Source: Carallia brachiata
Lineage: Eukaryota; Streptophyta; Magnoliopsida; Malpighiales; Rhizophoraceae
DNA length: 64,000 nucleotides
Direction: 5' to 3'
Assembly: GCA_021464245.1 (NCBI GenBank)
Contig: JADCRB010000001.1
Location: 1,063,169-1,127,168, forward strand
Position 1 is the stretch's first letter; every line of letters begins with the position of its first letter. The position numbers and the translations under genes were made by a program. The notes below the pieces were generated by a model that was given only the letters and a program-made list of their open reading frames with translations, had not been told where the DNA came from and made no database searches. This document shows, one piece after another, positions 4,801 to 56,832 of the stretch.

Positions 4801-7800
4801 CCCTTTCAGACATTAATGTTTTACATCATTTTCTTTTAATCTGTCAGACCTGCAGAAACAAGTAAGGGGCGGTCCAGCAATTTTTGGGGAATCTGGCCAG
4901 CATCAACCAATTGGTCTCCATATAGCAATAACTGCTGCCACGGTCATGGCAGGAGCTTTAGGTGGTTCCCAGGCCAGTGCGCTGTCAAATCCACATAGCC
5001 TACAGAGTCAGTCAGTACTTGCCAGTGATCCATTAACACTTCACCTGGCCAAAATGTCAAGGAGTCAATTGAATGAAATGATTTCTGAGCTGAAGGTATG
5101 CATTTGGGTAATTGTTGCACTATTTATAGATCGGTTTGATCAGTTGTTTGTTTTGTATGTGTCCTATGACAGGCAATGGCTACACAAAACAGAGAAGCAG
5201 CTCGCCAGCTATTGATTGGCAGACCGCAGCTTTCAAAAGCTTTGTTTCAGGTACCCATCTAAAGTTTGGTGTTTTATGAACATTTTGGTCCTGTAATATG
5301 TGTCTCTTGTTCTGATATAAGGAAATCTATATTTCTTGCCAAAAATGCTAATTCTAGATAAAAAAAACAACTTTATATATTAGGGATTTGAGCCATTTAT
5401 TCTTACACATGATAGAAGGGCGGGCCTTAGTTGGTGAGCTGCAACTGGAACGTATTCTGACATCTTTTCCTGCTTTTGCAACTGGAATGTGAAATTTGTT
5501 CTCCTTGTGGTAATGTTTTTGCAGGCTCAGATAATGCTAGGAATGGTAACACCGCAAGTGGTTCGTTTCAGCCCCACAAGGAAATTAACTCAGCTTTCTG
5601 CATTTTTTTAGCAATATTGTCGCCTAAGTAAAGATTTTTGATTTTGCAGTTGCAGATGCCAAATATTCGGCAGCCTCTAGATCAATCTGTACTGCCTTTT
5701 TTGCAAGAGACTCAGCAGGCTCAGCAACCAGCCATCCAGATTCTCCCTGGTTTAGCCCCGCTTATACACAGCGTGCAGTCGGGCTTGGTTCCTAGAATGC
5801 AAGAAGGTCAATTTTCTGCTGTGCCTCAACATTCTTTAGTCCGCAGCCATCTTTCAGCACCAATGCAACATTCCATGCAGCCTCGAATCCAGATTTCACA
5901 GCCCGTCATCAACCATATTCCTCATCAAGCGGCATTGCTAGGACAGTCTGGAGTTCCACCTCTTCATCCCTCTGTTAGACCAAAAATTCATTTGGCGAAT
6001 CACTCATCTTTGAATCAACCAGCTCAAGCATCCTTGTTACAACAGCGAGGTCTGGTTGCAGCCTTTGGGAGTAACTCTCAAACAACGGTACCCCCAAATC
6101 CTGCCATGCAATCATTGCTTTTACCTCGACCTTTTACACCAGATGCTTCCTTTCAGGTACCCATTTATGTTCCATTTTACTGTACACTTCATTTCAGGTT
6201 TACTGCTAACTATAGTTCTGGAATGAGGATGAATGCTTAATCTGGCGCTTAGGTTCTTTTAGTGCTGCTTAGACAGTTGTACTTAGTCCTGCTTGTGTTC
6301 CAACTTTGGATTCAATCCTTAGATTTGAGGAAAGCAGATAAGCAAAGCAAGGTTTGACTATAATGAATGGCTGGCAGTAGTTCATTTGCTCCTTTTTGCT
6401 TAGATATTTCATGTGAGAGGTGGAGCCATGTTCAAGCTGTTGGCTAGTGGTTTTTATCGGATAAAACGTATCTGGAAATCTCAAAGAATTTAGGAAATTG
6501 AAGACATTGTAGCATGGTGATTTCTAGTTGTATTGCCCTGATTGTAACAGACATCCATGTTGTAGTCATTCAAATGCATGTACGTGCACTATAATTCAAT
6601 GGATTGTGATGCACTAAATGAGACATCTGCCCATGTTTTCAAAGATGTGTTGGTACATGGGTATACATGCACGAGCTTGCTCATAGTTGTGGAAATGTGT
6701 TTGCTTTAAACACTGGTCATCATTGTTCCTGTTGATATCTAACTAACTTCATAACAAAAGCCTGGTCCCTCCATGTCATCAGGCATTTCAGGTCCTGTCA
6801 ACAAGGATGCTGCTATATCTGCTCGTATTCCTGATAATCCATCTGTGAACTTGCAAACAAGCACAGTTCGTGATTCTAAGGAAGTTAGCAGTCGTCCTTC
6901 CAAGCTGTTCAAATTGGATGATGATAAAAGCAAATCATTCTCAATGGCTGGTTCAAATGTCTCTACTGCCATTGGAACAGGACCTTCTGAAGCATTTTTA
7001 GTTGGTTCAGTGCCTCCTAATCTTGCTAAGCCAGAAGAGCTGCAGTATTCTGAGAAACAAATTTCTCAGGTATGCATTTTTAGATGGGTGCCAGTGGATC
7101 AGAATTGATTTTACTTGTTGGTTTGATTTACTTTAGTTTGATTAAGCTGTGAAATGCTAATGCTGGGTTGTGCCTAAAACGCCTTATTTCTCATTCCCAA
7201 ATTTTGGATGGAATACTGGTTTGTCTTGTATGTAGGATCTCAAGATATCTGGGATAGAAACTTGTCGGTGTTCTTTCCAGTGGACATGGTGTAGATCTTC
7301 CCATTATAATTATAATTTCCATCATAGCACATAAATTCTAGATGCTTTTTTTTTTTTTAATACCTGGATGTATCTCAAGGATAGAGATTTAACTTCTTAC
7401 TTGGTGGAACAAAATCCAGTTTACCGAATGATGAACTTTAGGTTTCATAATGTGTGTTTAGGAGTAGCCCTTTGCACATTTTCCTCAGAGGATCAAATTT
7501 TGCACATTTTGATGACTACACTTGATACGTCACTTCAGAATGTTCTATTTCAAATATGAGGTCGAAAGATATTTAAGTAAGTGGCCATTGTTTGTTATCA
7601 AAATCCCAATAATAAGTCTGAGGCAGCTAACTGCAAATCTGCAATTACATTGCTTTGTTTGTTCCAAGAATGGTTGAATATTCAAACCAATTTTTTTAAT
7701 TTGTTCCTCGCTGACATTATACAAATCTTCTTTGCTTTTAATGCAATTGCCGTTGATGGCAAATGATGTTGTAAGCTAACATTTTTTCCCCTGCCTCTTC

Positions 7801-24113: not shown

Positions 24114-25300
24114 ATGGCCGAGACCGCAATCCGATTCGGCATACTTGGGTGCGCTAACATTGCCCGAAAGGTTTCCCGCGCCATCACCCTAGCCCCCAAC
24201 GCCCAGCTCTCCGCTGTCGCCAGCCGCTCCTTTGAGAAAGCTGAGGCCTTCGCAAAGGCCAACAACTTTCCTCCAGACGCCAAGATCTACGGCTCCTACG
24301 AGTCTCTCTTGGACGACCCGACAATCGACGCCGTTTACATACCTCTGCCCACCAGTCTCCACGTGAAATGGGCCTGCTTGGCTGCCGACAAGAAGAAGCA
24401 CATCCTGCTGGAGAAACCTGTCGCGATCAACGTTGGGGAGTTTGATGAGATCGTGGAGGCCTGCGAGGCCAACGGCGTGCAGCTTATGGATGGAACCATG
24501 TGGATGCATCATCTCAGAACTCAAAATATGCGTGACTTCCTGAATGATAAGGATCGCTTCGGTGAGCTCATGACGGTGCGTTTTACCCTCTCTCAGCGTT
24601 TTCGCTATACAAATTTCTTTGTCATAAGGGGAAAAAGAAAATGTAGTTTGAAGCAACTATCGATGTTGTGTTTTCATTCACAGTTTCTGGGCGGCAGAGT
24701 CTAGTCCTAATCTAAGTGAAGGCAAATTTTTTTAATACAGTTAGAAATTTTTTGTAATTATATAAATTTATTATATAATAAAAAATAAAAAAAATTTTAA
24801 TCATACTTGTAAACAATGTGATGGCATAATAAATTCATATAGTTACATTATAAAAAAAAAATTTTGACAAATTCTTCCAAACATATAATAGAGTCTAAAA
24901 GTAAAATAGAGCTTGAAATGGTTAATAGATCTTAGGTTTTATATCCATTTTGGAGATTTCAAGTTATAATATTTAATAGATCTTAGGTTCTAATTTTTTA
25001 AAGAGGGTGTGAGATTTATTTAGTAACTCAAGTCTATTTACCTTCCTAATAAAATAAAAAAAAAAAACTCCAAAGGTTTGACTCCAGTTCTTTCTATCGC
25101 TCATCTTTTTTTTAATATTAGACTATCATCTCTGTATCAAAAAAAAAAAGGAGGGGTCATTATCGTAAAAAATGGATGTGAGTCACAGTGTAGTCCAAAT
25201 TTAGTGACTTTTTAATAGGTCATCTTTCTGTTGCCGCAACCTGAACTCCTTTTGGTGGTAACTTTCCTCGATCAGATAGATGGCGACCTCAGGACGTTTG

Positions 25301-25535
25301 GTATTAGGTAAAGAGGAAGCACGTTGAATAGAAAAATTGGCTTGTTTATTTTTATTAATCATTGTATAAATTTATAGAATACATAGATTAGATTATAACA
25401 ATTTGTTCTGTTCAAATATTCAAGAGAATAGAACGAGATAACATGCTGGGAAAATTTAAAAAAGAAAAAGTTTGAAAATTGGATAATCTAGCCAAAGATG
25501 AGCTATAGTATTATCTTTAGGTATTTGAAATTGGA
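25301..25535. mobile_element. Private insertion in the copy 1 intron
   Basis: Where copies 2-5 read TTGGTATTAGGTCTTTGAAATTGG or close to it, copy 1 has about 230 bp of AT-rich sequence between TATTAGGTA and TTTAGGTATTTGAAATTGG. The repeated TTAGGTA could be a short target duplication. Terminal repeats are not obvious, so its class is unknown. Confidence 0.45.
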
Positions 25536-26125
25536 ATTGGAATGAAAGTTTCCTTGTAGGCTCGTCCAAATCAGGTGAATTGAGAATTTGTCTTCATTAG
25601 TTACGGTACACCCTTAAAACATAATAAAAATTAGTATTTTTTAAAAAGTTAAAATTTAAGTAAAATAATTATCAATATTATTTATAAAATATTATTCTAA
25701 AATATAAAATTATAAAATATAAAAATAAATTTTTAATATGATATATCTATACAAATTATATGTTTAAATTAGACATTTCATTATTTAACAGTAACATTAA
25801 GTATAAAATTAACCAAACACTTTATTAATTTTATTAGCAATCAGTAACAGTAAGTAAGAATCAGCAATTAACAGCAGTAATCAGTAATAACAATCAATAA
25901 CAGTAATATTCAACAGCTAACCCAAACAGACTTTAAATAAGATTAAACAAAAAAGAATTATGAAAAATCAATAACATCAATTAACAATTAGTAATAAGAA
26001 GAACAATCAAATAATAGTTAAAACTAAAGAGGCCCAAAATCTGTAACAAGGGAATCGGTGAAAATCACTTTCCTAGTGGGTTTTTCATTTTCTTTTAACA
26101 ACATTTTTTTTTAGATCGCCCCTAT

Positions 26126-26319
26126 TAATAAATATGAGAAATACTAGTAATAGTCACTTTCACCTTCTCTTTTACAGTTGCTGTTTACGTGACAGGTGTT
26201 GATTGACTGTCAAAAATATTACAGAAATACTATTAAAAAGTGTTGATATGTTGATTTGTAATTGGTGTCTATAAAAGAGAAGGTAAAGTGACTATCCGTA
26301 ACAAACCTCTAATAAATAT
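26126..26319. mobile_element. MITE with 10-bp target duplication in the copy 1 intron
   Basis: A 174-bp insert (26136-26309) has inverted ends sharing TAGTCACTTT-ACCTTCTCTTTTA. It is flanked by identical TAATAAATAT (26126-26135 and 26310-26319). Sister copy 4 has an uninterrupted site (CTTCTGATAAATATT), so this insertion came after or outside the duplication that made that copy. There is no coding capacity. Confidence 0.8.
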
Positions 26320-27464
26320 TCCTAAATTACAGCTATTTTTTATTTTATTTAGTCTCATAAGGCAATACTTGCCAAATTGAGTTGTATTTTGACACTGCTA
26401 TATATTGTGCTTGTATGGAGAATATCAGTTTCGTTGTGATTTGTGAATGTTCCTCTGTTTCATCGTGATGTTTATAAGAATTGATATTGTGTACCCTTGC
26501 TGTTGAAGTGCTCATTTGTTACCTGCTGAGTAGGGATTTCCCTTTGGTTCCAAATTCTTTGTCTTTAAAACTCTAATTTGGGCGTTGCAGATTCATAGCT
26601 GCTTTACATATGCTGGTAATGACGATTTTCTCAAGAACGACATTAGCGTAAAGCCAGACCTTGATGGACTTGGTGCTCTTGGTGATATTGGGTGGTATTG
26701 CATTCGGGCAATTCTGTGGGCTGCGGATTATGAACTGCCAAAGAATGTGATAGCCATGCGAGGGCCCGTACTTAATGACGCTGGGGTTATTTTATCTTGT
26801 GGAGCTTCTCTACACTGGGAAGATGGGAAAGCAGCAACCTTTATTGCTCTTTCTTATCGCATTTGACTATGTACATTACTGCCATTGGAACAAAGGGCAC
26901 TCTGCAGCTCAATGATTTTGCAGTTCCTTGTAAAACCAAGGAGGCCTCTTTCACGGCAGCTTCTAAATCTTTCTATGATCTTGCATCATGGGAACCGCAG
27001 CCAAGCCAGCGCACTGTAATAACAGATCTTCCCCAGGAGGCCTGCATGGTAAGGGAATTTTCCGGTCTGGTTGAAAATATTAAGGCAAGTGGTGCAAAAC
27101 CTGATCAAACGTGGCCAACGCGAAGTAGGAAGACACAACTGATAATAGATGCAGTGAAGGCATCGATTGAGAAGGGTTTCGTGCCTGTTGAGGTTGTGAA
27201 TTGATTGGAAGTTTGGAACCGTGTCTTTTTAAATGTCTGATCATTTCCTTGAATCATCTTACGTATGTATGTTTGTTCGAAATAAGGCTACCTTAGGTTA
27301 AGCCCGACGTCCTCCGGTTCATTTAGGATATGAAAATCTGATCTCAGGCTTTGGATTGTCTACAACTATTCTACACTTTGTGATTCCAAAGACAGTACTT
27401 CTAAAATTTGGCCATGGTTTGTTGTACCGTAAAAGACATTAATAATTTTTATTAAGTTCCATAA

Positions 27465-28199: not shown

Positions 28200-31100
28200 A
28201 TGGCCGAGACCCCGATCCGATTCGGCATACTTGGGTGCGCGGAGATTGCCCGATTGGTTTTCCGAGCCATCACCCTAGCCCCCAACGCCCAACTCTCCGC
28301 CGTCGCCAGCCGGTCCTTTGAGAAAGCCGAGGCCTTCGCAAAGGCCAACAACATCCCTCCAGACGCCAAGATCTACGGCTCCTACGAGTCTCTTCTGGAA
28401 GACCCAACAATCGACGCCGTTTACATACCTCTGCCAACTAGTCTCCACGTGAAATGGGCCTGCTTGGCTGCCGAGAAGAAGAAGCACATCCTGCTGGAGA
28501 AGCCCGTTGCGATTAACGTTGGGGAACTCGATGAGATCGTGGAGGCCTGCGAGGCCAACGGCGTGCAGCTTATGGATGGAACCATGTGGATGCATCATCT
28601 CAGAACTCAGAAGATGCGCGACTTCCTGAATGATAAGGAGCGCTTCGGTGAGCTCAAGACGGTGCGTTTTACTACCCTCCTCTCTCAGGTTCCAGTTGCG
28701 CTAGTTCTAACCTCAGCCAAGAAAAAATAAAAAATATATATATATAACTTGGGACACCACGAGTTCTCTTAATTTTTAAGGTTTCTGGGTTTAATATTTA
28801 ATAAAATTTAAATTTTAATCCTTAGAAAGATATAAAATTTATAAAAATGTGTAGAAGTATCTCAGGATCTCCTAATAAAGGTTATATTAGTAAAATTTTT
28901 TGGGTCATTATTGTAAAGAAGGGATGTGAGTCAAATTTAGTGACTTTTAAGGCGTCATTTTTGTTGCGGCAATCTGAACTTCTTTTAGAAGTAAGTTTCC
29001 TTCATCAGATAGATGGGTACCTAAGGCGTTCGGTATTAAGTCTTTGAAATTGGGATGAGAATGAAAGTTTCTTTGTTTTTTTTTTTTTTTAATACAAAAA
29101 AATTATTGCAAGTATTTCCGTTATTAAATTTATGGGTTGGAGTTTGAGTATTCTCATTTAAATGTCCCGTTCAACTACTTTCATAGAGGTAGAATTACTA
29201 TCGAAACATTCATGAATTTGAATGTATCTTGACACAATCGATCACAGTGTTAACGAATTTGAAATTAGCAGTATGCTCTCAACATTAAATCCCAAATATT
29301 GGGTTAGCGCTAGGAACGGAATTTGAACTCGAGTCGTGAAGGAAGAAGGCGCACCGAGTAACCACCAAGCTACTGCCTTTGGCGTCGAAAATTTCCTTGT
29401 AGGCTAGTCCAAAACAGGAGAATTGAGAAATTTTCTTGATTAGTTGAGTTTATCTGAATTCCTACAATACACCCTTTAAATATAATAAATAAGATTAAAC
29501 AAAAGAGTATTATGAGAATGGGGTAATTAGTTAAAATCTTCAATGAGGTAATTTGTGAAAATCAACTCTCCTAGTGCGTTTTTTATTTTCTTCGAACAAC
29601 ATTTTTTCGGTCGTCCTTCTGATAAATTTTGCTATATTACAGCTAATGTTTATCCTATTTAGTTTCAGTGGGCAGTGTAAACACCAAAAAAAAAAAATCA
29701 ATGCATGCCCTACATGAAAGCAACAAGTGCATGCATATGAAAATGATGATTTCCATTTGGTTGATGACCATGCAAAATGTCAAAATTCAACCACCAAAGA
29801 GGGTCCTTGCCTTGTAGGATCCTACTCATGATGAATCATATGGAAATTTTAATTTCCATTTGATTGCAAAATGTCAAAATTCAACCACCAAAGAGGGCCC
29901 TTGCCATGTATGATCCAAGTCATACAATTTTGGCATCCATCCTCCCCCAAAACCCTATAAATAGGGATCCCCTCAAAGCCTTTCAATCCATCCCAAGCAA
30001 AGCAAATCATTCATCTTCTAAAGCTTTGCATCTCTTCCTTTCTCTCTCTAAATATTTTGGGTGTATGCTCTCTAGCTGCCACTAAGTTGGATCCGCTAGA
30101 TCAAAAACCCAAGATATTAAATATCCGAGTGGGATCAAGCCTCCTACGGCCCTCACCGGAGTCCAATCAATTCGAGTGGGATCAAGCCTCCTACGGCCCT
30201 CACCGAAGTCCATCCAGTTCGAGTGGGATCAAGCCTCCTACGGCCCTCACCGAAGTCCATCCAATCCGAGTGGGATCAAGCCTCCTACGGCCCTCACCGC
30301 GTCCATCCAGTCCGAGTGGGATCAAGCCTCCTACGGCCCTCACCGAGTCCACAGTCCGAGTGGGATCAAGCCTCCTACGGCCCTCACCGAAGTCCATACA
30401 GTCCGAGTGGGATCAAGCCTCCTACGGCCCTCACCGGAGTTCAACTAATCCACTTGAGATCAAGTCTCGGCCCTCAGTGGGATCCATTTCCTATAGTTCA
30501 AGTTCACGATGTGGAAATTCACCATCTCTCGGTCAAGATTAAGCCTTCACGGCCCTTGACTAAATTACACAGGAGCATTAATCGGAGGATCTACCCAGAG
30601 ATCGACCCCACATAAATTTCTTTTTATTTTACAATTTTTTTATTGTAATTTGTTTATGTATTTTTTGAGTCTAACTGTTACAGGCTCGAAATTTACAGCT
30701 TCACAATTTTTGGCACGCTCGGTGGGACCTCTCCGCCTCCCATCTTTTGCTCCTCTACAAAAAAAAATTAGCACGAATCCAACATCAACGTTGTCACAAT
30801 CACGATGACAAGCGCAACGAACACTGAAGACAGGATTGCAGAATTGGAAAGCAGAATTTTCCAACTGCTCAAAACTGTGGAAGAAAAAGATCAACAGATC
30901 GCTCAAAGGAAAAGCTCCAATCCAAGTTGATCTCCAGACCCACGAGGAGCGACAATATCCACCTGGTTTCACTCCAGAAGCGACACCAGCCGATGTCTTC
31001 AATGCTGAAAAACAACCAGGTAGTTCTACACAGCTGCCACCCTCAAATTCTGTAGCTTCGCTATCTGTTCAACAATTGCAGGAAATGATAGCCAATACGA

Positions 31101-34100
31101 TCCGACTGCAACAAGCTACATCCTTCCAAGGATCACAGATGTACGTCAAACCGTACACCAGACGGATCGAAAGTCTCAACATGCCTCTGGGCTACCAGCC
31201 GCCCAAATTTCAACAATTCGACGGACGAGGCGATCCCAAACAGCACATCGCCCACTTCGTTGAAACCTGCAACAATGCAGGGACTTACGGAGATCTCTTG
31301 GTGAAGCAGTTTGTTCGTTCACTAAGGGAGAACGCTTTCACGTGGTTCATAAACCTTGAACCAGAATCAATCGACAGTTGGGAACAACTACAACGAGAGT
31401 TTCTCAACAGATTTTTCAGCACTCGGAGAACGGTGAGCATGATGGAGCTTACTAGTGCCAAACAAAGGAAAGGAGAGCCCGTTGTCGAATACATCAACAG
31501 ATGGCGTGCTCTCAATCTAGACTGCAAAGATCATCTTACGGAGACTTCTGCTGTGGAAATGTGCATCCAAGGGATGCACTGGGAGCTATTATACATCCTA
31601 CAGGGCATCAAACCTCGAACTTTTGAGGAATTAGCAACTCGAGCGCATGACATGGAAATAAGCATCAAGACCTCTGGAGGCACGATTCCCATCCAACTGG
31701 GCCAACATGGGGGCAAGAAAGTGATGACCATTGATGCTTCACCGATAAAAGTTGGAGCTAAAGCAAAAATGAGTCCTCCAGCGCTGACAAATCAACCAGA
31801 AAAGGGAAGGATGACCTTGCGAGAGTTGGAACAGAAGAAGTATCCATTCCCCGACTCCGACGTTCCAGACATTCTCGATCAACTTTTAGAAGCTAAGTTG
31901 ATCAAACTCCCGGAATGTAAGCAACCCAATCACAAGAATCAGGTCAATAATCCAAAATTCTGCAGGTATCACCGCACAATCAACCATCCAACCGAGAAGT
32001 GCTTCGTCTTAAAGGAGCTGATCTTGAAGCTCATAGACCAAAATAAAATCAATTTGGACCAGGGAGACATAGTCTCAGTCAACCAGACTGCCGTCCCTTC
32101 AAATTCGTCAGAAGAAAGTCAACATGAAATTACGCTTGCATGCTGTCAACGCATCCCGATCTGGTTCGATCAAACGGTAAACTTCTAAAATTGACTGTGT
32201 AAAAAAAAAAAAAAAAAAAGGCAAAAAAAAAAGATAGAAATAAAAAGGAATAAAAAGAAAAAAAAAAAACAAAAAAAAAAGCAAAAAAAAAAAGGGTGCA
32301 AAAAAAAAAAGCACGAAAAAAAAAAGCCAAAAAAAAAAAAAAAAAAGAAAATGTCTGAAACTTATGTGCAAGTTCAGAACCCTTCCACAAAATCCAAATC
32401 TAGATTCGGGGGCAGATCTCAAACCCCGATTCAAAACCCAACAAATCCAAATTCGGGGGCAAAATCCAAGTCCGAACCCAAATTCTAGTTCAAAATCCAA
32501 ATCCAAATTCAAACTCGGGCCTAAAGCCCAAATTCAAATCCAGGCCCAAAAAGCCTAAACTCAAACCCTAGCCCAAAGCCCAAATTCACCAAATCTAAAC
32601 TCGGGCTCAAAACCCAAATCCAAGTTCCAACTCATAGCCTAAATCCAGATTCGGGGGCAAAGCCTAGACCCTGAATCAAAACTCAAGTCAACAGCTCAAC
32701 AGCTCACCAAACAGCTCACCAGCTCAACAGCTCAGCAGCTCACCAACTCAACAGCTCAGCAGCTCACCAACTCAACAGCTCAGCAGCTCACCAAACAACT
32801 CAGCAGCTCAACAGCTCACCAGCTCAGCAGCTCAGCAGCCAAGCAGCTCAACAGCTCAGCAGCTCAACAGCTCACCAGCTCAGCAGCCAAGCAGCTTAAC
32901 AACTCATCAGCTTAACAGCTCACCAGCTCGCCAGCTCAACAGCTCAGCAGTTCAACACAACACTCTGGACTCGCACGAGTATAAAAGGCGACATCACAGT
33001 TCAACACTCCTGCCTCGCACGAGTAAAAAAGGCGACATCACAGTTCAACACTCCTGCCACGCACGAGTATAAAAGGCGAACAGTTCAGCAACACACTCCT
33101 GCCTCGTACGAGTATAAAAGGCGACACTACAGTTCACCAAACTCCTGGCCCGCATGAGTATAAACTGTGAACGGCCAAAAATATAAAAGCGACGGAGGGT
33201 TTGAGTCTGAAACTCAGCATCAGTCTCAACCGATCTTCACCACACCAAGACCTTTGCTCCTCTGCCACAAGAAAGATGGAACCAGTTGCAGAACCTCAAG
33301 ACAAGGAGAAGAAAGGTCACCCGCACAAGGTGGCAACCAACTATGGCGCAACTGCAAATTCTGGAGGAAGTCTTCCACAACAATGGAGGTATTGTTATAC
33401 CTAATGCATCTCAGATTTACCAACTTGTCTCACGATTGCGCCCACTCGGGGCAATCGAAGGAAAAAATGTGTTTTATTGGTTCAGAATCGGAGAGAAGCA
33501 GGAAGAAACCAGCACTGAGAGCTGATTTTTCCAAAGAACAGTCTGCTGTTCCGATGGTAGATCTCACCAGTACAACTTCGCCGTCAAATGAAGCAGGTCC
33601 GAGTTCTTCCACCGTAATAGTCTCTCCACGGTATGTTCATCAAAGCCGTAGCCCATGGGAGCATGCACGCTGGTCCTGGTGGTCTTACGGAGTCAGCCAA
33701 GGGTTCATCCCTCCTAGATACTTAAGTCTAGGAGGAATTTTTCTAGCAGAAAGGAGTATTCCGGCGAAACTTTGCCTCTCTTTCCAGAATATTCCGCAGC
33801 ATCAACCAGCGGAAGCGACGTCGACGTCGACGTCAACATCATCGGCCCACCAGACGAGGTCGAGCTTGACTTGGAGCTGCGCCTCGGGCCCCGCTAGGAC
33901 GGCCGACAAGATAAGGTGCAACGACTTTCAGCAACGACTTCTGCAGCACGCGGCAACGACTTCCGCAGCACACGGCAACGACTTCCGCAGCACACGGCAA
34001 CGACTTCTGCCACACACGGTAACGACTTTCGTGACACGCGTCAGCCGCTGCCTCTTTTGTCTCTTATGCAGGAAAGGGACGTGGATGGCCCTACTCGATT

Positions 34101-34114
34101 TGCGTACCTTCTGA

Positions 34115-34146
<32 letters not shown>

Positions 34147-36702
34147 TCTTTATTATTTGTATATATATCCTGCATGCCCGAGTTGTAATATTCACCCCTC
34201 AGCTCTTCTTTCTCAAAAGAAAATGGCTAGTCTCTGCACTTGTCTCAGGAAGTTCTTCGATCAAGAAGTTGGAGGCGCACGAGCTAAGAAAAGAGGGAGT
34301 AGTCTTCTTCGAGGGATCCTCGAAACTCAGTCTCCAACGCCATCGGTGTCATGGAGTTCCAACTACTCTCCTTAGTTCACATCTACCACAGAGGGATGAG
34401 AAGCTGCAATTATCCTAATCTTTCTTTGGATGCAGCGACGTACAGGGAAGTTCCAACTACTCTCCTTACGTCGAAGCAGACTTGGAAATCATCACTACAG
34501 TCAGTCTCTCTGTGAGCCGGTCTTGAAGTTCCAAGGTCCTGGGCCTTCCTCTTGGGGAGGTTCAAGTTCTTTGCCTACGGATCATCCTCACCAGAGCTCT
34601 GGAACTTTAAGAGATATAAAAAATCCTTTGCGGGCTATGGAAGCTCGAACGCACCTGGAGCCAAGACTTCAATTTTTATATTGGCTGGGCTGCTAACCTT
34701 CTCAAGATCGTATCGGATTCCTATTGCGATCCAACAACAGCAGGCATGGTCAAAGATAGAAGACTCCAACATTCAACGTTCATTAAGACATCTCAAGTTT
34801 CAAACTGGACTTCAAGACTCGGTTCGGATCATTACGGTAAAATTTTCCTTACCGACCCTTGAAGTGGGGGCATTTGTAAACACCAAAAAAAAAAAAAAAA
34901 TCAATGCATGCCCTACATGAAAGCAACAAGTGCATGCATATGAAAATGATGATTTCCATTTGGTTGATGACCATGCAAAATGTCAAAATTCAACCACCAA
35001 AGAGGGTCCTTGCCTTGTAGGATCCTACTCATGATGAATCATATGGAAATTTTAATTTCCATTTGATTGCAAAATGTCAAAATTCAACCACCAAAGAGGG
35101 CCCTTGCCATGTATGATCCAAGTCATACAATTTTGGCATCCATCCTCCCCCAAAACCCTATAAATAGGGATCCCCTCAAAGCCTTTCAATCCATCCCAAG
35201 CAAAGCAAATCATTCATCTTCTAAAGCTTTGCATCTCTTCCTTTCTCTCTCTAAATATTTTGGGTGTATGCTCTCTAGCTGCCACTAAGTTGGATCCGCT
35301 AGATCAAAAACCCAAGATATTAAATATCCGAGTGGGATCAAGCCTCCTACGGCCCTCACCGGAGTCCAATCAATTCGAGTGGGATCAAGCCTCCTACGGC
35401 CCTCACCGAAGTCCATCCAGTTCGAGTGGGATCAAGCCTCCTACGGCCCTCACCGAAGTCCATCCAAATCCGAGTGGGATCAAGCCTCCTACGGCCCTCA
35501 CCGGCGTCCATCCAGTCCGAGTGGGATCAAGCCTCCTACGGCCCTCACCGAAGTCCATACAGTCCGAGTGAAGATCAAGCCTCCTACGGCCCTCACCGGA
35601 GTTCAACTAATCCACTTGAGATCAAGTCTCGGCCCTCAGTGGGATACATTTCCTATAGTTCAAGTTCACGCTGTGGAAATTCACCATCTCTCGGTCAAGA
35701 TTAAGCCTTCATGGCCCTTGACTAAATTACACAGGAGCATTAATCGGAGGATCTACCCAGAGATCGACCCCACATAAATTTCTTTTTATTTTACAATTTT
35801 TTTTATTGTAATTTGTTTCTGTATTTTTTGAGTCTAACTGTTACAGGCTCGAAATTTACAGCTTCACAGGCAGTACTTGCCAAATTGAGTTGTATTTTTA
35901 CTCTGCTATATTCTGTTTATGTGAAGTATACAAATTTCGTTGTGACTTGTGAATGTTCCTTTGTTTCAGCGTGAGGTCTATAAGAATTGATGTTGCAGTT
36001 GAAGTGCTCATTTGTTACCTGCTGAGTAGGGATTTCCCTTTGGTACTAAATGGATGCTTTAAAACTCAAATTTGGCCCTTGCAGATTCATAGCTGCTTTA
36101 CGTTTGCTGGTAACGAGGATTTTCTCAAGAACGACATTCGCGTAAAGCCAGACCTTGATGGGCTTGGTGCTCTTGGCGATGTTGGGTGGTATGGCATTGG
36201 TTCAATTCTCTGGGCTGCGGATTATGAACTGCCAAAGACTGTGGTAGCCATGCGAGGGCCTGTACTTAATGATGCTGGGGTTACTTTATCTTGTGGAGCT
36301 TCTCTACACTGGGATGATGGGAAAGTAGCAACCTTTCATTGTTCTTTCTTATCTTATTTGACTATGTACGTCACCGCCATCGGAACAAAGGGCACTTTGC
36401 ATCTTAATGATTTTATCAGTCCTTTTGAAGAGGAGGCCTCTTTCACTGCAGCTTCCAAATCTTGGTTCAATGATCTTGTAACTGGCTGGGTACCGGTACC
36501 AAGCCGGCACACTGTAACCACAGATCTTCCCCAGGAAGCCTGCATGGTGAGGGAATTTTCCCGTCTGGTTGGAAATATTAAGGCAAATGGTGCAAAACCT
36601 GATCAAACGTGGCCAACACGAAGTAGGAAGACACAACTGATAATAGATGCAGTGAAGGAATCGATTGAGAGAGGTTTCGAGCCTGTTGACGTTGTGAATT
36701 GA
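28200..36702 (+). CDS. Oxidoreductase copy 2 (GFO/IDH/MocA family), intron holds a retrotransposon
   Basis: Putative NAD(P)-dependent oxidoreductase; the substrate is unknown for this plant subfamily. Exon 1 (28200-28661) encodes 154 residues: FGILGCAEIAR Rossmann start, LLEKPVAINV with the EKP lysine, then MDGTMWMHHLRT. Exon 2 (36085-36702) encodes 205 residues, including GDVGWYGIGSILWA and AIGTKGTLHLNDF, and ends EPVDVVN. The total is 359 residues with no break, about the usual length. The intron is 7.4 kb instead of the 1.0-1.2 kb of copies 3-5, because it contains a SINE (29076-29386) and a 6.2-kb LTR element (29676-35868) in the gene's own orientation. The LTR promoter and polyadenylation signals could disturb splicing or expression. 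Whether full transcripts are made cannot be judged from the sequence. Confidence 0.85.
29063..29399 (-). mobile_element. tRNA-derived SINE with target duplication in the copy 2 intron
   Basis: The element (29076-29386, - strand) starts CGACGCCAAAGGCAGTAGC. It has an A-box-like GTAGCTTGGTGG and a B-box-like GAGTTCAAATTCC, and ends in a run of A read on the - strand (T run at 29076-29090). Flanks GAAAGTTTCTTTG (29063-29075) and GAAAATTTCCTTG (29387-29399) match at 11 of 13 bases. Copies 1, 3, 4 and 5 carry the uninterrupted site (GAAAGTTTCCTTGTAGGC, with one base fewer in copy 5). Confidence 0.85.
29956..29964 (+). promoter_or_regulatory. TATA box of the left LTR
   Basis: TATAAATAG inside AACCCTATAAATAGGGATCC is a textbook plant TATA box. 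The same string is at 35159-35167 in the right LTR. Transcripts from the right LTR would run into exon 2 of oxidoreductase copy 2. Confidence 0.7.
30124..30437 (+). repeat. 47-bp LTR minisatellite, seven units
   Basis: Seven head-to-tail units share GGGATCAAGCCTCCTACGGC and CCTCACCG, and are separated by a variable GTCCATCCAGT linker. The unit is 47 bp where unshortened. Because 47 is not a multiple of three, the array reads open in all three frames as cycling short peptides, which should not be taken as a protein. Confidence 0.95.
30706..30730 (+). other. Primer-binding site region
   Basis: Directly after the left LTR, ATTTT precedes TGGCACGCTCGGTGGGACC. The TGG start, complementary to a tRNA CCA end, and the position fit a primer-binding site. 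I cannot assign the tRNA with confidence. Confidence 0.55.
30804..32188 (+). CDS. Retrotransposon gag, frame broken near the N-terminus
   Basis: An ATG at 30804 opens a coiled-coil-like leader (RIAELESRIFQLLKTVEEKD) that stops at about 30930. The main gag body is in another frame and is open from 30836 to 32188. The body contains the plant retrotransposon gag fold (MPLGYQPPKFQQFDGRGDP, then FTWFINLEPESIDSWEQL and FLNRFFSTRRTVSMMEL). It ends in a zinc-knuckle-like CRYHRTINHPTEKC. The frame change means no single full gag product is made as given. No pol follows. Confidence 0.85.
32189..32690 (+). repeat. A-rich tract followed by CCAAATTC-type degenerate repeats
   Basis: About 160 bp of A runs (32201-32350) directly follow the gag stop. 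Then come degenerate repeats of AATCCAAATTCGGGGGCAAA and CCCAAATTCAAATCC strings. These carry no coding signal. The Phe-rich frame on the - strand is a shadow of the A runs. Confidence 0.8.
32690..32955 (+). repeat. AGCTCA(A/C/G)C minisatellite
   Basis: About 25 short units of CAGCTCAACAGCTCACCAGC type, with an 8-11 bp period and AGCTC as the constant core. Seen directly in the sequence. Confidence 0.9.
32958..33190 (+). repeat. Tandem repeats each carrying a TATA-like box
   Basis: Four to five units of about 45-50 bp share ACTCCTGCCTCGCACGAGTA and TATAAAAGGCGACATCACAG. TATAAAAGG is found at 32980, 33068 and 33113; a mutated GTAAAAAAGG lies at 33022; related TATAAA strings follow near 33160 and 33182. 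The array lies immediately upstream of the captured WOX fragment. Confidence 0.85.
33276..33897 (+). pseudogene. Captured WUSCHEL-related homeobox (WOX) gene fragment
   Basis: A piece of a plant homeobox transcription-factor gene inside the retrotransposon. One frame (33286-33483) reads a WOX homeodomain: TRWQPTMAQLQILEEVF, then QIYQLVSRLRPLGAIEGKNV and FYWF. A lost base at about 33483 then breaks the helix-3 WFQN region. A Ser-rich stretch follows in a second frame. Back in the first frame, SGETLPLFPEYS (33760-33795) matches the WUS-box TLxLFP. DEVELDLELRLGPR ends at the TAG 33895-33897, an EAR-like repression motif. A Met start (MEPVAEPQDKEKKG) lies at 33276 in a third frame. No intron is apparent across the homeodomain. 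The combination of three WOX hallmarks in order makes the origin convincing. The exact WOX member is unresolved, and the EAR end could derive from another factor. Confidence 0.8.
33917..34039 (+). repeat. 22-bp minisatellite after the WOX fragment
   Basis: Five to six units of GCAACGACTTCCGCAGCACACG with scattered changes, beginning about 20 bp after the WOX-frame stop codon. Confidence 0.9.
34040..34874 (+). other. 3' non-coding part of the retrotransposon, with polypurine tract
   Basis: A T run then A run (34113-34146) is followed by unremarkable sequence with no recognisable domain. TTGAAGTGGGGGCAT immediately before the right LTR (core 34861-34871) is the polypurine tract expected for plus-strand priming. 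Confidence 0.7.
34875..35868 (+). repeat. Right LTR
   Basis: 994 bp, the same as the left LTR apart from a few substitutions and small indels. The minisatellite (35327-35600) has six units, one fewer than the left LTR. It ends CTTCACA, followed by the GGCAG target duplication. Confidence 0.93.
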
Positions 36703-40819: not shown

Positions 40820-43071
40820 ATGGCCGAGACTGCAATCCGATTCGGCATTCTTGGGTGCGCGGAGATTGCCCGAAAGGTTTCCCGGGCCATCACTCTAGCC
40901 CCCAACGCCCAGCTCTCCGCCGTCGCCAGCCGCTCCTTTGAGAAAGCCGAGGCCTTTGCCAAGGCCAACAACTTCCCTCCAGACGCCAAGATCTACGGCT
41001 CCTACGAGTCTCTTCTGGACGACCCGACAATCGACGCCGTTTACATACCTCTGCCGACCAGCCTCCACGTGAAATGGGCCTGCTTGGCTGCCGAGAAGAA
41101 GAAGCACATCCTGCTGGAGAAGCCTGTTGCGATTAACGTTCGGGAATTCGATGAGATCGTGAAGGCCTGCGAGGCCAACGGTGTGCAGCTTATGGATGGA
41201 ACAATGTGGATGCATCATCTTAGAACTCAGAAGATGCGTGACTTCCTGAATGATAAGGAACGCTTCGGTGAGCTCAAGACGGTGCGTTTTCCTACCCTCC
41301 TCTCTCTCAGCTCTTCTGCTTTTAACTTTCTTTATCATAAAGGAAAAAAAAACTGTAATTTGAAGCAATTATTCTATATCAGAAATATTTTTTTTTTGAC
41401 ACGCACCTGGAACGTATATTTATATAGATTGTTGAATAGTAAAAAGTACGTTAAATTTAAAATTAAAAAAAAATAAATTATTAAATGTTATTTGAAATCT
41501 TACATAGCAAGTAGCCTTACTTAATTGAGATCGCATTTTCATACACAGAATCCTGTAGCTCTAGTCCTAATCTGAGCGAAGAAAAATGAAAAAAAGATAA
41601 CCAGTGGTCAAAATTTAGATATTTCTTTGAGATGTCTCTGATCTACCCTTTAATAGATTTTGAGTTTCAATTCTCGGAAGAAAAACGTAACATGAGATTT
41701 ATTGGTATAGGAGAATTAGCACATGCTTAAAAATAAAAAGGAAAAAAAACTCAAATGGTTATGATAGTAAAGTTTTATAGATCATTATTGTAAAAAAAAA
41801 AGGATGTGAGTGAAAATTTAGTCCAAATTTATTCTTTTTAAGATATCATATCTTGTTGCTCCAACTGTACTCCTTTTGGAAGCGAGTTTCCTCTATCGGA
41901 TAGACGGGTGTACCTCTGGGCTTTTGGTATTAGGTCAATGAAATTGGAATTGGAATGAAAGTTTCCTTGTAGGCTTGTCCAAATCAGGAGAATTAAGAAA
42001 TTGCCTTGATTAGTTGCGCTTATCTAAATTCCTACAATACACCCTTAAAATATAATAAATAAGATTAAACAAAAGAGTATTATGAGAATGAGGTAATTAG
42101 TCAAAATCTTCAATGAAGGAATTTGGGAAAATAAACTCTCTAGTGGGTTTTTCATTTTCTTCTAACAATATTCTTTTAGGTTGCCCCGTTTCAGAATATT
42201 CCTAAATTACAGCTAATTTTTATCCTATTTAGTCTCAGTAGGCAGTACTTGCCAAATTTAGTTGTACATATTCTGTTTATATGAAGTATACAAATTTCGT
42301 TGTGACTTGTGAATGTTCCTCTGTTTCAGCGTGATGTCTATAAGCAAAAATATTGCGTACCCTTGCTGTTTAAGTGCTCATTTGTTACTTGCTGAGTAAG
42401 GATTTCCATTTGGTTCTGTGTGCTTTAAAACTCAAATGTGGGCCTTGCAGATTCATAGCTGCTTTACATTTGCTGGTAATGAGGATTTTCTCAAGAACGA
42501 CATTCGCGTAAAGCCAGACCTCGATGGACTTGGTGCTCTTGGTGATGTTGGGTGGTATGGCATTAGGGCTATTCTCTGGGCTGCGGATTATGAACTGCCA
42601 AAGACTGTAACAGCCATGCGAGGACCTGTACTTAATGATGCTGGGGTTATTTTATCTTGTGGTGCTTCTCTACATTGGGATGATGGGAAAGTAGCAAACT
42701 TTCATTGTTCTTTCTTAGTCCATTTAACTATGTACATTACTGCCATTGGAACAAAGGGAACTCTGCATCTCAATGATTTTGTCATTCCTTTCGAAGAGGA
42801 GGAGGTCTCTTTCACGGCAGCTTCTAAATCTGGGTTTAATGATCTTGTAACTGGTTGGGTATCGGTGCCAAGCCGGCACACTGTAACCACAGATCTTCCC
42901 CAGGAAGCCTGCATGGTGAGGGAATTTTCCCGTCTGGTTGGAAACATCAAGGCAAATGGTGCAAAACCTGATCAAACGTGGCCAACACGAAGTAGGAAGA
43001 CGCAGCTGATAATAAATGCAGTGAAGGAATCGATTGAGAGAGGTTTCGAGCCTGTTGAGGTTGTGAATTGA
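40820..43071 (+). CDS. Oxidoreductase copy 3 (GFO/IDH/MocA family), intact
   Basis: Putative NAD(P)-dependent oxidoreductase of unknown substrate. Exon 1 (40820-41281) and exon 2 (42451-43071) join in phase 0 across a 1,169-bp GT-AG intron to give 360 residues. Residues 5-20 hold the nucleotide-binding Rossmann start FGILGCAEIARKVSRAI. LLEKPVAINV carries the EKP lysine. The C-terminal half has DIRVKPDLDGLGALGDVGWY and AIGTKGTLHLNDF, the fold's substrate and dimerisation domain. It has one extra Glu in an EEEE run compared with copy 2. A start 87 nt further upstream is in frame, but the family start at MAETAIRFG fits the sister copies. No signal peptide, so probably cytosolic. Confidence 0.92.
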
Positions 43072-48019: not shown

Positions 48020-50128
48020 ATGGCCGAGACCGCAATCCGATTCGGCATACTTGGATGCGCGGAGATTGCCCGAAAGGTTTCCCGGGCCATCACCCTGGCC
48101 CCCAACGCCCAGCTCTCCGCCGTCGCCAGCCGCTCCTTTGAGAAAGCCGAGGCCTTCGCAAAGGCCAACGACTTCCCTCCAGACGCCAAGATCTACGGCT
48201 CCTACGAGTCTCTTCTGGACGACCCGACAATCGACGCCGTTTACATACCTCTGCCGACGGGTCTCCACTTGAAATGGGCCTGCTTGGCTGCGGAGAAGAA
48301 GAAGCACATCCTGCTGGAGAAGCCCGTTGCGATTAACGTTGGGGAACTCGATCAGATCGTGGAGGCCTGCGAGGCCAACGGCGTGCAGCTTATGGATGGA
48401 ACATGTGGATGCATCATCTCAGAACTCAGAAGATGCGCGACTTCCTGGATGATAAGGAACGCTTCGGTGAGCTCAAGACGGTGCGTTTTACTACCTTCCT
48501 TCTCTCTCGGCGTTTCTGCTTTTCAACTTTCTTTGGAAAAGAAAAAAATAGATAAACATAACACGTGTCTACGTAGTCTTATTCCATCGATATTGTATTT
48601 TCATGCACAGATCTAGTTCTAATCACAGGGAAGAAAAAACAAAAAAAAAACAACTTGGGATACCTAGTGGCCAAATTTAGATCTCTCTTTTAGAGTTATC
48701 GAATCTATTCTTTGATAGATCTCGGGTTCTAATTCGTAAAACGTGAGATTTATTGGTATGGAAGAATTGCTTCATTTTGTAGCACATGCCTCTTAAAAAA
48801 TGAATCAAAATGGTGATGACAGTAAAGTTTTATGGGTCACTATTGTAAAAAATGGATGTGTGGAAATTTAGTCCTTTTAAGAGGTCATGTCTTGTTGCTG
48901 CAACCTGTACTTCTTTGGGGGTGAATTTCCTCTATCAGATAGACGGGTTTACCTCAGGGCGTTTGGTATTAAGTCTTTGAAATTGGAATTGGAATGAAAG
49001 TTTCCTTGTAGGCCTGGCCAAATCAGGAGAATTAAGACATTGCCCTGATTAGTGATCGAAATTCCCACAATACACCCTTAAAATATAATAAATATAAGAT
49101 TAAACGAAAGAGTATTATGAGAATGAGGTAATTAGTTCAAATCTTCAATGAAGGAATTTGTGAAAATCAACTCTCCGTGTGGCCTTTTCATTTTCTTCCA
49201 AAGATATTTTCTTTAGGTCGCCCCTTCTGATAAATATTTTTAAATCACAGCTAATTTTTATCCCATTTAGTCTCAGTAGGCGGTACTTGCCAAATTGAGT
49301 TGTATTTTGACTCAGCTGTATTCTGTTTATATGAAGTATACAGATTTCGTTGTGACTTGTGAATGTTCCTCTGTGTCAGCTTGATGTCTATTAGAATTAA
49401 TATTGCGTACCCTTGATGTTGAAGTGCTCATTTTTTACCTGCTGAGTAGGGATTTCCATTTGGTTCCAAATTCTTGGTGCTTTAAAACTCTAATTTGGGC
49501 CTTTCAGATTCATAGCTGCTTTACATCTGCTGGTGATGAGGATTTTCTCAAGAACGACATTCGTGTCAAGCCAGACCTTGATGGACTTGGTTCTCTCGGT
49601 GATATTGGGTGGTATTGCATTAGGGCTATTCTCTGGGCTGCGGATTATGAACTGCCAAAGACTGTAACAGCCATGCGAGGACCTGTACTTAATGATGCTG
49701 GGGTTATTTTATCTTGTGGTGCTTCTCTTCATTGGGATGATGGGAAAATAGCAACCTTTCATTGTTCTTTCTTGTCGCATTTGACTATGTACGTTACTGC
49801 CATTGGAACAAAGGGCACTCTGCGCCTCGATGATTTTGTCGTTCCTTTTGAAGAGAAGGAGGCCTTTTTCACGACAGCTTCTAAATCTTGGTTCAATGAT
49901 CTTGTAACTGGTTGGGAACCGGTGCCAAGCCAGCACACTGTAAACACAGATCTTCCCCAGGAAGCCCGCATGGTGAGGGAATTTTCCCGTCTGGTTGGAA
50001 ATATTAAGGCAAATGGTGCAAAACCTGATCAAACGTGGCCAACACGAAGTAGGAAGACACAGCTGATAATAGATGCAGTGAAGGAATCTATTAAGAGAGG
50101 TTTCGAGCCTGTTGAGGTTGGGAATTGA
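48020..50128 (+). pseudogene. Oxidoreductase copy 4, exon 1 frameshift
   Basis: Exon 1 (48020-48480) is 461 bp instead of 462. The sister copies read GGAACCATGTGG or GGAACAATGTGG, but here GGAACATGTGG lacks one base after 48402. The frame leaves the family sequence at LMDGT (residue about 127) and runs into non-family residues (CGCIISELRRC). Exon 2 (49508-50128) is open for 206 residues and otherwise normal (GDIGWYCIRAILWA, AIGTKGTLRLDDF, ending EVGN). The intron is 1,027 bp. Either a recent pseudogene or a sequencing error in an otherwise intact copy; only one lesion is seen. Confidence 0.85.
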
Positions 50129-54553: not shown

Positions 54554-56832
54554 ATGGCCGAGACCGCAATCCGATTCGGCATACTTGGATGCGCGGGCAT
54601 TGCTCGAAAGGTTTCCCGGGCCATCATCCTGGCCCCCAACGCGCAGCTTTCCGCCGTCGCCAGCCGCTCCATTGAGAAAGCCGAGGCCTTTGCCAAGGCC
54701 AACAACTTCCCTCCGGACGCCAAGATCTACGGCTCCTACGAGTCTCTTCTGGACGACCCGACAATCGATGCTGTTTACATGCCTCTGCCGACCAGTCTCC
54801 ACGTGAAATGGGCCTGCTTGGCTGCCGACAAGAAGAAGCTCATCCTGCTGGAGAAGCCCGTTGCGATTAACGTTAAGGAGTTCGATGAGATCGTGGAGGC
54901 CTGCGAGGCCAACGGCGTGCAACTTATGGATGGAACAATGTGGATGCATCATCTTAGAACTCAAAAGATGTGTGACTTCCTGAATGATAAGGAACGCTTT
55001 GGTGAGCTCAGGACGGTGCGTTTTACTACCCTCCTCTCTCTCAGCGTTTCAGCTTTTTAACTTTCTTTATCATAAAGGGAAAACAAAAAAAACTGTAATT
55101 TGAAGAATTGTCCATACCAAAAATACTTTTTGGACGCTCAATCGTGCACGTGTAAACGGTTGGATAGTGAAAGATGCGTCGGATTTAAAAAATAAAAAAA
55201 TAAATAAATTATTAAATATTTTTTTAAAATTTATATATCTTATCAACCGTGGCTAGGTAGTCTTATTCTATGGATATTTAATTTTCATGCACGGAATCTA
55301 GGTGCTCTAGTCCTAATCTCAGCGAAGAAAAAAGAAAATAGCACTTGGGATACCGGTGATCAAAATTTAGATATTTTTTTAGAGTTCTTGGATCTAATTT
55401 TTAGTAGATCTCGGATTCTAATTCTCCGAGGATAATGTGAGATTTATTGATATGGAAGATTTGCCTCATTTGGTCGTACATGCCTCCAAAAAAAAAAGAG
55501 ACTCAAAATGGTTCTGATAGTACAGTTTTATGGGTCATTATTGTAAAAAATGGATGTGAGTTAAAATTTAGTCCAAATTTAGTCTTTTTAGGAGGTCGTA
55601 TCCTGTTGCTGCAACCTGTACTCCTTTTGGAAGTAAGTTTCCTCCATCAGATAGACGGGTGTACCTCAGGGCTTTTGGTATTAGGTCTTTGAAATTGGAA
55701 TTGGAATGAAATTTCCTTGTAGGCTTGTCCAAATCAGGAGAATTAAGAAATTGCCTTGATTAGTTGAACTTACCTAAATTCCTACAACACACCCTTAAAA
55801 TATAATAAATAAAAGATTAAACAAAAGAATATTATGAGAATGAGGTAATTAGTTAAAATCTTCAATGATGGAATTTGGGAAAATAAACTTTCCTAGTGTG
55901 TTTTTCATTTTCTTCCAACAATATTCTTTTAGGTTGCCCCTTTTCAGAAATATTCCTAAATTACAGCTAATTTTTATCCTACTTAGTCTCAGTAGGCAGT
56001 ACTTGCCAAATTTAGTTGTATATATTCTGTTTATATGAAGTATATAAATTTCGTTGTGACTTGTGAATGTTCCTCTGTTTCCGCGTGATGTCTACTAGAA
56101 TTAATATTGCGTGCCCTTGCTGTTTAGGTGCTCATTTGTTAACTGCTAAGTAGGGATTTCCCTTTGCTTCCAAATTCTGGGTGCTTTGAGACTCTATTTT
56201 GGGCCTTGCAGATTTATAGCTGCTTTACATCTGCTGGTAATGAGGATTTTCTCAAGAACGACATTCGTGTAAAGCCAGACCTTGATGGACTTGGTTCTCT
56301 TGGTGATCTTGGGTGGTATGGCATTGGGGCCATTCTCTGGGCTGCAAATTATGAACTGCCAAAGACTGTAACAGCCATGCCAGGACCTGTACTTAATGAT
56401 GCTGGGGTTATTTTATCTTGTGGAGCTTCTCTACGCTGGGAAGATGGGAAAGTAGCAAACTTTCATTGTTCTTTCTTGTCGCATTTGACTATGTACATTA
56501 CTGCCATTGGAACAAAGGGCACTCTGCACCTCAATGATTTTGTCATTCCTTTTGAAGAGAAGGAGGCCTCTTTCATGGCAGCTTCTAAATGTTGGTTCAA
56601 TGATCTTGTAACTGGTTATGTATCGGAGCCAAGCCAGCACACTGTAACCACATATCTTCCCCAGGATGCCTGCATGGTGAGGGAATTTTCCCGTCTTGTA
56701 GGAAATATTAAGGCAAATGGTGCAAAACCTGATCAAGCGTGGCCAACACAAAGTAGGAAGACGCAACTGATAATAGATGCAGTGAAGGTATCGATTGAGA
56801 AGGGTTTGGGGCCTGTTGAGGTTGTGAATTGA
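54554..56832 (+). CDS. Oxidoreductase copy 5 (GFO/IDH/MocA family), intact
   Basis: Last copy of the array. Exon 1 (54554-55015) and exon 2 (56212-56832) flank a 1,196-bp intron and encode 360 residues without a break. The Rossmann start is FGILGCAGIARKVSRAI; LLEKPVAINV carries the EKP lysine. Compared with the other copies it has several private replacements: YMPLPTSL, KKLILLEK, AMPGPVLND, SKCWFNDLVTGYVSEPS and QAWPTQSRK. It may be diverging in function or relaxing. Downstream lies no further copy and no HSP20 remnant, so this is the array's edge. Confidence 0.92.

Follow-up and report, generated by a model that had tools for sequence, protein, structure and literature searches.

Some LTR retrotransposons are known to carry domains derived from their hosts. 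In the cited part of a survey of extra domains spanning 121 genomes, these include an m6A demethylase in Phalaenopsis, as well as PMD, G-patch, YgdH, and B3 domains, and the words homeobox, homeodomain, WUSCHEL, and WOX are absent from the main text of that article (PMC9289625). For the Retand clusters tabulated in the cited part of another survey, the region between pol and the 3′ LTR measures 2,933-6,566 bp, the ORFs found there are mostly antisense, and no sense ORF in this position encodes a known domain (PMC11963269). The Retand extra ORF (TRP28), which is antisense, is thought to bind DNA, according to the same source, in which gene transductions are said to occur in one or a few copies (PMC11963269). 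The words homeobox and WUSCHEL are also absent from the main texts of PMC7264820, PMC6317226, and PMC3726574, and among the open-access titles and first lines of abstracts listed, none reports an LTR element encoding WUSCHEL (WUS) or another homeodomain protein. With regard to the WOX family, the cited part of one article states that the WUS-box occurs in the modern clade only and places the EAR-like motif in the WUS and WOX5 subgroups; it also mentions a second exon-intron border of Arabidopsis WUS, which means that WUS has introns (PMC5977200).

The window analyzed here is a 64,000-nucleotide stretch of the Carallia brachiata genome. On its plus strand, positions 29676-35868 form a young LTR element with TG..CA ends, within which a WUSCHEL-type gene lies downstream of gag. 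The features are as follows:

29671..29675, no strand: left copy of the target-site duplication GGCAG, a repeat flanking the LTR element
29676..30705, plus strand: 5′ LTR of 1030 bp with TG..CA ends and TATAAATA at LTR position 281, from LTR comparison
30711..30729, plus strand: primer-binding-site-like stretch TGGCACGCTCGGTGGGACC, after the 5′ LTR
30805..32188, plus strand: gag, from Pfam PF03732 (3.1e-15), tblastn frames, and gag relatives
32201..32957, plus strand: A-rich stretch with short tandem repeats, separating gag from the WUS unit
32958..33164, plus strand: about 4.6 tandem units of 44 bp, just 5′ of the WUS leader
33182..33188, plus strand: TATAAAA, 94 bp upstream of the ATG with no other ATG intervening, from a motif scan
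33276..33897, plus strand: WUSCHEL-type extra ORF, frame-broken in this copy, with its ATG at 33276 and its stop at 33895-33897
33328..33525, plus strand: homeodomain frame, from Pfam homeodomain and PDB matches
33769..33786, plus strand: WUS-box TLPLFP, by motif, invariant among 120 aligned WUS-type relatives
33865..33888, plus strand: EAR-like LDLELRLG near the C-terminus, by motif
34861..34874, plus strand: polypurine-tract-like GAAGTGGGGGCATT, before the 3′ LTR
34875..35868, plus strand: 3′ LTR of 994 bp, from LTR comparison
35869..35873, no strand: right copy of the target-site duplication GGCAG, a repeat flanking the LTR element

The window element thus has the LTR pair, TG..CA ends, target duplication, primer-binding site, and polypurine tract of an LTR retrotransposon. 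It interrupts an intron of the second of five tandem At4g09670-like oxidoreductase genes, and the uninterrupted, empty site is present in all four of the other tandem copies. The window element therefore inserted by LTR transposition, and the WUS-clade gene is located inside an LTR element, as the initial annotation had proposed. The two LTRs differ by five substitutions over 986 aligned columns and by six gap runs, one of which is 44 bp long, about one repeat unit. At an LTR substitution rate of 1.3e-8 per site and year, this LTR distance corresponds to an insertion age of about 0.2 My. Within the array of 44-bp units, TATAAAAGGCGA is exact in three units and has one mismatch in a fourth. The N-terminal part of gag is in a different frame from the remainder, with the frame change near 30905-30930 according to the tblastn frames. 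No pol domain was found by Pfam in the seven longer ORF frames of the window element that were scanned.

The five tandem oxidoreductase genes occupy 24114-27201, 28200-36699, 40820-43068, 48020-50125, and 54554-56829. The top four protein matches of the oxidoreductase gene come from Jatropha, Mercurialis, Ricinus, and Hevea, at 76-82%. Frame changes occur in the first copy (near 26833-26842) and in the fourth (near 48403), and these reflect either gene decay or assembly indels. The homeodomain and gag of the window are without relatives in IMG/VR, and no RNA family reached its gathering score in the scan; RNA folding of the WUS insert gave a z of -2.8. A partial gag protein of the window type is filed under Salmonella enterica (P0131), and this record is likely plant contamination.

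The initial annotation had read a WOX homeodomain, TLPLFP, and LDLELRLG, in that order, from the window, and both the order and the places of these motifs were confirmed by motif positions, Pfam, PDB, and shuffles. The homeodomain frame (33211-33525) matches the Pfam homeodomain at 1.3e-6 and 28.5 bits (cut-off 22.9), and in PDB it matches WUSCHEL at 5.2e-16 and STENOFOLIA at 2e-13, so that the proposed translated alignment to WOX proteins is significant. IEGKNVFYWF begins at 33454, and directly after YWF the homeodomain frame departs from the WUS-like frame. Among 5000 first-order shuffles of 33484-34000, TLxLFP arose in two, and TLxLFP followed by a later LxLxL in the same plus-strand frame arose in none. 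Among 533 candidates, a read-through protein, with X at the junctions, matched 401. All of the best 120 of these 401 contain the Pfam homeodomain, and those among the 120 that bear informative names are WUSCHEL-type, bar one with an unrelated annotation. The copy has the frame breaks noted earlier: only 42 amino acids are readable from the ATG, and the motifs sit in different frames. All parts of the gene fall within 622 bp with no intron between them, as had also been noted. Because the gene parts are intronless, whereas WUS has introns, the gene likely came from a spliced RNA, unless its introns were lost during passage through RNA.

Overprinting in frame 2 was considered as a separate candidate and rejected. 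In the window copy, this frame is open for 316 codons (33161-34114), a length reached in 0 of 2000 first-order shuffles. The odds of its openness were about 0.09 and 0.5 in two codon-permuted segments and 0.19 in shuffles of a third, and nothing was made of it; the openness is probably a side effect of codon make-up.

An open copy from elsewhere in the family matches WUSCHEL in PDB without gaps at 3.2e-18 and STENOFOLIA with one gap at 5e-16. Like WUSCHEL and other modern-clade WOX proteins, the element protein has a homeodomain with IEGKNVFYWFQN and of WUS length, the TLPLFP form of the WUS-box TLxLFP, and an EAR-like end, which together are the features of the WUS (modern) clade. Unlike them, it equals the WUS majority residue in only 32 of 63 homeodomain columns, and after WFQ it has NRRSRKK in place of the NHKARERQ of WUS, with the core VFYWFQN kept. 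Nine exons in the host genome carry the pattern FYWFQNHKA[R], a pattern that would miss a donor with another motif or one since lost. All nine are of ordinary WOX types, by reading two WUS, two WOX1-like, two WOX4-like, one WOX5-like, one WOX2-like, and one WOX3-like. Compared with these nine modern-clade exon pieces, the element protein scores best against the WUS pair (77.8 and 76.6 bits), followed by the WOX3-like gene (67.8 bits). In the search for a parent gene that the initial annotation had proposed, the best-scoring candidates are the two WUS genes of the host, which are 50 and 46% identical to the element protein, which is about equally far from the WUS of other plants. In equal homeodomain residues, the host WUS pair (31/58) and the WOX3-like gene (31/57) are level. 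A homeodomain tree built with reference sequences placed the element beside WOX3 and WOX5 with a support of 33, and a second tree placed it on its own long branch. At the DNA level, the ORF of one copy shares no exact stretch longer than 12 nt with the nine host WOX exon pieces, which disfavors recent copying of any of the exons compared. We infer that an ancestor of the element captured a WUS-clade transcript long ago, and capture from a host transcript appears plausible.

The window element belongs to a large family. In the 337.5 Mb host genome, 40 of 1238 first-look candidates for the window WUS insert were scored, and all 40 cover the whole query, the window at 100% and the other 39 at 96-97% identity. 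The genome copies of the insert, which the initial annotation had proposed to count, were estimated with a degenerate EGKNVFYWFQN pattern, which occurs at 521 places (248 + 273) and at none when reversed as a control. Among the 100 matches listed, 99 are of the element type (96 with the same 33-mer and three with one letter changed) and the remaining one is a host WOX gene; eight of the 521 places are expected to be host WOX exons. Of the 40 copies that were read, one is that of the window, 20 extend over about 7 kb, and 19 mostly over about 1 kb of sequence; all were found through similarity to the WUS insert, so the sample consists of family members with the insert. Their median identity is 0.990.

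The description of the element as gag-only holds for the window copy but not for its long relatives. In 16 of the 20 seven-kb copies, reverse transcriptase, RNase H, and integrase are located upstream of the WUS gene; of the others, one has integrase only and three have no pol match. The 16 pol-bearing copies share the window stretch from about 33140 to 34874-34900, and 14 of them also share the last 200 bp or so of the LTR, while the 44-bp array is shared, at its far end, in one. The long relatives match the window leader only from about 33140 on. Window-type gag was not found in the 16 pol-bearing copies within the fetched stretch of about 7 kb. In one long relative (L010), reverse transcriptase (RVT_1, 7.7e-35), RNase H (RT_RNaseH), a second RNase H-like domain (RVT_3), and integrase (rve) lie upstream of a WUS ORF whose homeodomain scores 2.8e-12, with pol split over several frames when read by ORFs. 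The piece upstream contains gag and a 5′ LTR that is 94.9% identical to the 3′ LTR, and the coordinates give this element a length of about 10.4 kb. In a second long copy, the LTRs are 98.4% identical, so that the LTR pair is seen in two long copies, and TTTTTGGCACGCTCGGTGGGAC also occurs 3′ of the 5′ LTR in two long relatives of the window element. In one copy, the last pol-type ORF ends at 3509 and the LTR starts at 5526, leaving a region of about 2.0 kb between pol and the 3′ LTR.

Another copy (L023) matches integrase and, in part, gag, and both of its LTRs lie in range. Three further copies (L009, L018, and L022) are short elements with an LTR at each end that keep the WUS unit and have no gag or pol match, and in one of them the whole WUS ORF is open. 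The 5-bp duplications read from the flanks of four copies differ (CAGAT, GTAAA, CACAT, and ACAAC). For six LTR pairs besides that of the window, the distances range from 0.0023 to 0.0287, or about 0.1-1.1 My at the same rate. Since reverse transcriptase, RNase H, and integrase lie upstream in 16 of 20 copies and the core motif occurs at hundreds of places, the WUS-type gene is, as judged from these copies, a resident extra ORF that lies in sense orientation between pol and the 3′ LTR, and the window copy is a derived form. The proposal of a one-off transduction by a gag-only element is thereby overturned.

The initial annotation had further argued from the frame breaks that the copy may act, if at all, as RNA rather than as protein. 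This is true of the window copy only and fails for the family. The frame from the ATG to WFQN is open in 31 of 40 copies, and in 15 of 40 the whole ORF of 206-209 codons is open from the ATG through the homeodomain and WUS-box to the EAR-like end, terminating in LDLELRL or LDLELHL. The other 25, the window copy included, are not open end to end. TLSLFP replaces TLPLFP in two of the 15 open copies (L031 and L047), and at the arginine of LELRL 21 of 38 compared copies differ from the coordinate copy. By alignment, 36 frame-shifting indels (34 deletions and two insertions) are present in 24 of 40 copies, 27 of them in one copy only. Because two are each common to seven copies, lineages with a broken ORF may have spread, while the deletion bias suggests that part of the indels are sequence errors. 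A frame change is also present in two of the five host oxidoreductase copies, which bears on the same question.

The divergence of the gene from WUS follows the constraints of WUS. In the homeodomain, 25 of 35 columns that are invariant among 120 WUS-type proteins are kept, compared with seven of the remaining 28 (3.5e-4 by Fisher). A binomial test against the neutral expectation gives 5.6e-5, or 3.9e-4 when any residue seen in WUS is counted, and the window frame alone gives 7.1e-4 by Fisher and 0.046 when any residue seen is counted. In neutral simulations, which count stops only and leave out indels, the ORF stays open in 0.95% of runs at 0.2 substitutions per site (62% homeodomain identity) and in about 0.3% at 0.3 substitutions per site (47% homeodomain identity). 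Because the divergence follows WUS constraints and a neutral ORF is rarely open, the gene was likely kept as a protein through most of its divergence to about 50%, whether within the element itself or in a donor gene of the host; a host paralogue could have been under the old constraint before it was captured. Among the 40 young copies, the nonsynonymous share does not depart significantly from expectation (0.649 compared with 0.710, p = 0.19; with indel surroundings masked, 0.646 compared with 0.705, p = 0.22). Summed over pairs, pN/pS is 0.41 for all copies, and for the homeodomain of the open copies it is 0.82.

In all 40 copies, TATAAAA is positioned 92-98 bp before the ATG with no intervening ATG and with the same AAAGATGGAA start context. 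The reading that we consider probable is that the element in the window is a shortened member, with broken frames, of a high-copy Ty3/gypsy family in which the long elements carry a sense WUS-type gene, and that the family likely uses, or recently used, this gene to make a DNA-binding repressor from its own promoter. Under this proposal, the TATA motif would work as a promoter of the WUS-type ORF, and with transcription starting in the LTR or in the leader that bears this motif, the resulting mRNA would have the start codon of the WUS-type protein as its first ATG. This protein would recognize DNA sites like those of WUS by means of VFYWFQN, the retained core of the recognition helix. The WUS-box and EAR motif of WUS serve in co-repressor recruitment, and those of the element protein would recruit TOPLESS-type co-repressors. 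Targets may be host stem-cell genes or the LTR of the element itself, and action on them might help transmission through meristem cells. TTAATSS, a WUS-type site, is not enriched in the LTRs. A bolder version is that the element expresses its own WUSCHEL to create or hold a stem-cell-like, transmissible state for transposition, as a plant counterpart of a retrovirus with a cellular oncogene, but one kept and spread to hundreds of copies; we put this forward tentatively and consider it doubtful.

The WUS-type gene might instead be the remnant of an old WUS-clade capture that rides in a successful element and is useless to it, its frames being open through youth. The near identity of the copies (about 99% at the median), the short LTR ages of the seven pairs measured, the lack of significant selection among copies, and the frame-shifting indels common to up to seven of them all fit such a history. 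It leaves unexplained why replacements avoid WUS-invariant columns and why a gene-like leader is present in 40 of 40 copies, and a neutral ORF would rarely have stayed open at this divergence (about 0.3% at 47% homeodomain identity, counting stops only). This account is possible, if on the unlikely side. Alternatively, the element may recently have captured a WUS paralogue already divergent within the host, where selection would have acted, which would account for the constraint pattern together with the near-identical copies. However, none of the nine host exons found by the pattern is close, the best being 50% identical with 12 nt as the longest shared DNA, and we regard such a capture as improbable. 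A separate retrogene with its poly-A that landed inside the element could be read from the T14-A18 run about 220 bp after the stop, but no flanking duplication exceeds chance (the longest is 6 nt, and 167 of 300 shuffles do as well). As this event would at most describe the first capture of a gene that now spreads with the elements, it is given very little credence.

The initial annotation had favored action of the copies as RNA or small RNAs silencing a parent WOX gene. According to the cited part of PMC3726574, overlap between small RNAs and genes captured by LTR elements does occur in rice and sorghum. For the parts compared here, namely the ORF of one copy and the nine host WOX exon pieces, this proposal has lost its basis, as the longest shared stretch of 12 nt is shorter than a small RNA of 21-24 nt, and silencing of a parent gene is scarcely credible. 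An ordinary host WOX locus beside repeats, or a chance occurrence of the motifs, is refuted by the LTRs with GGCAG on both sides, the empty sites, the motif order, the shuffles, and the copy number.

A resident WUS-type gene expressed as a repressor thus remains the preferred reading. Because many copies retain a complete reading frame, it is likely that these elements produce their own gene regulator of the stem-cell type or did so until recently. WUSCHEL marks and maintains the cells that give rise to shoots and eventually to the germ line. With a WUS-type gene kept to about 50% divergence, present in hundreds of copies, and open in many of them, transposon action on stem-cell identity becomes testable. 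In addition, many homeobox reading frames lie hidden in a plant genome, where WOX gene-family surveys could miss or miscount them. The family also supplies a sense extra ORF of a known domain where the Retand survey, in its cited part, found none (PMC11963269).

Compared with described systems, the Ty3/gypsy order of reverse transcriptase, RNase H, and integrase is read in one long relative (L010) and is not seen in the window copy. The second RNase H (RVT_3) after RT_RNaseH and before rve in this one copy is a feature of the Tat lineage. It is shared with Retand/Tat elements as these are described in the cited parts of PMC11963269 and PMC6317226, as are the placement of a gene after pol and before the 3′ LTR and the tandem repeats, here in the window copy. 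Unlike in the Retand clusters, the extra ORF is sense and WUS-type, and at about 2.0 kb in the copy measured, the stretch from pol to the 3′ LTR falls outside the Retand range. The nearest analogy for a DNA-binding role of the element WUS is the role suggested for the Retand extra ORF in the cited part of PMC11963269. With two LTRs around a gag that has one frame change, and with no pol domain found, the window copy resembles a TR-GAG as defined in the cited part of PMC9784723. It differs in carrying a second gene, and three of its relatives keep the WUS unit with no gag match. As with the captured genes of rice, sorghum, and maize LTR elements in the cited part of PMC3726574, a host gene lies between LTRs, but unlike the gene transductions described in PMC11963269, the element WUS is present in hundreds of copies. 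In this respect it is closer to the LTR elements with extra domains in the cited part of PMC9289625, in which a host-type domain is kept in many Ty3/gypsy copies. Within the open-access literature, as far as the cited portions extend, extra ORFs and captured genes are already known from LTR elements, and what is new here is an element that encodes a homeodomain.
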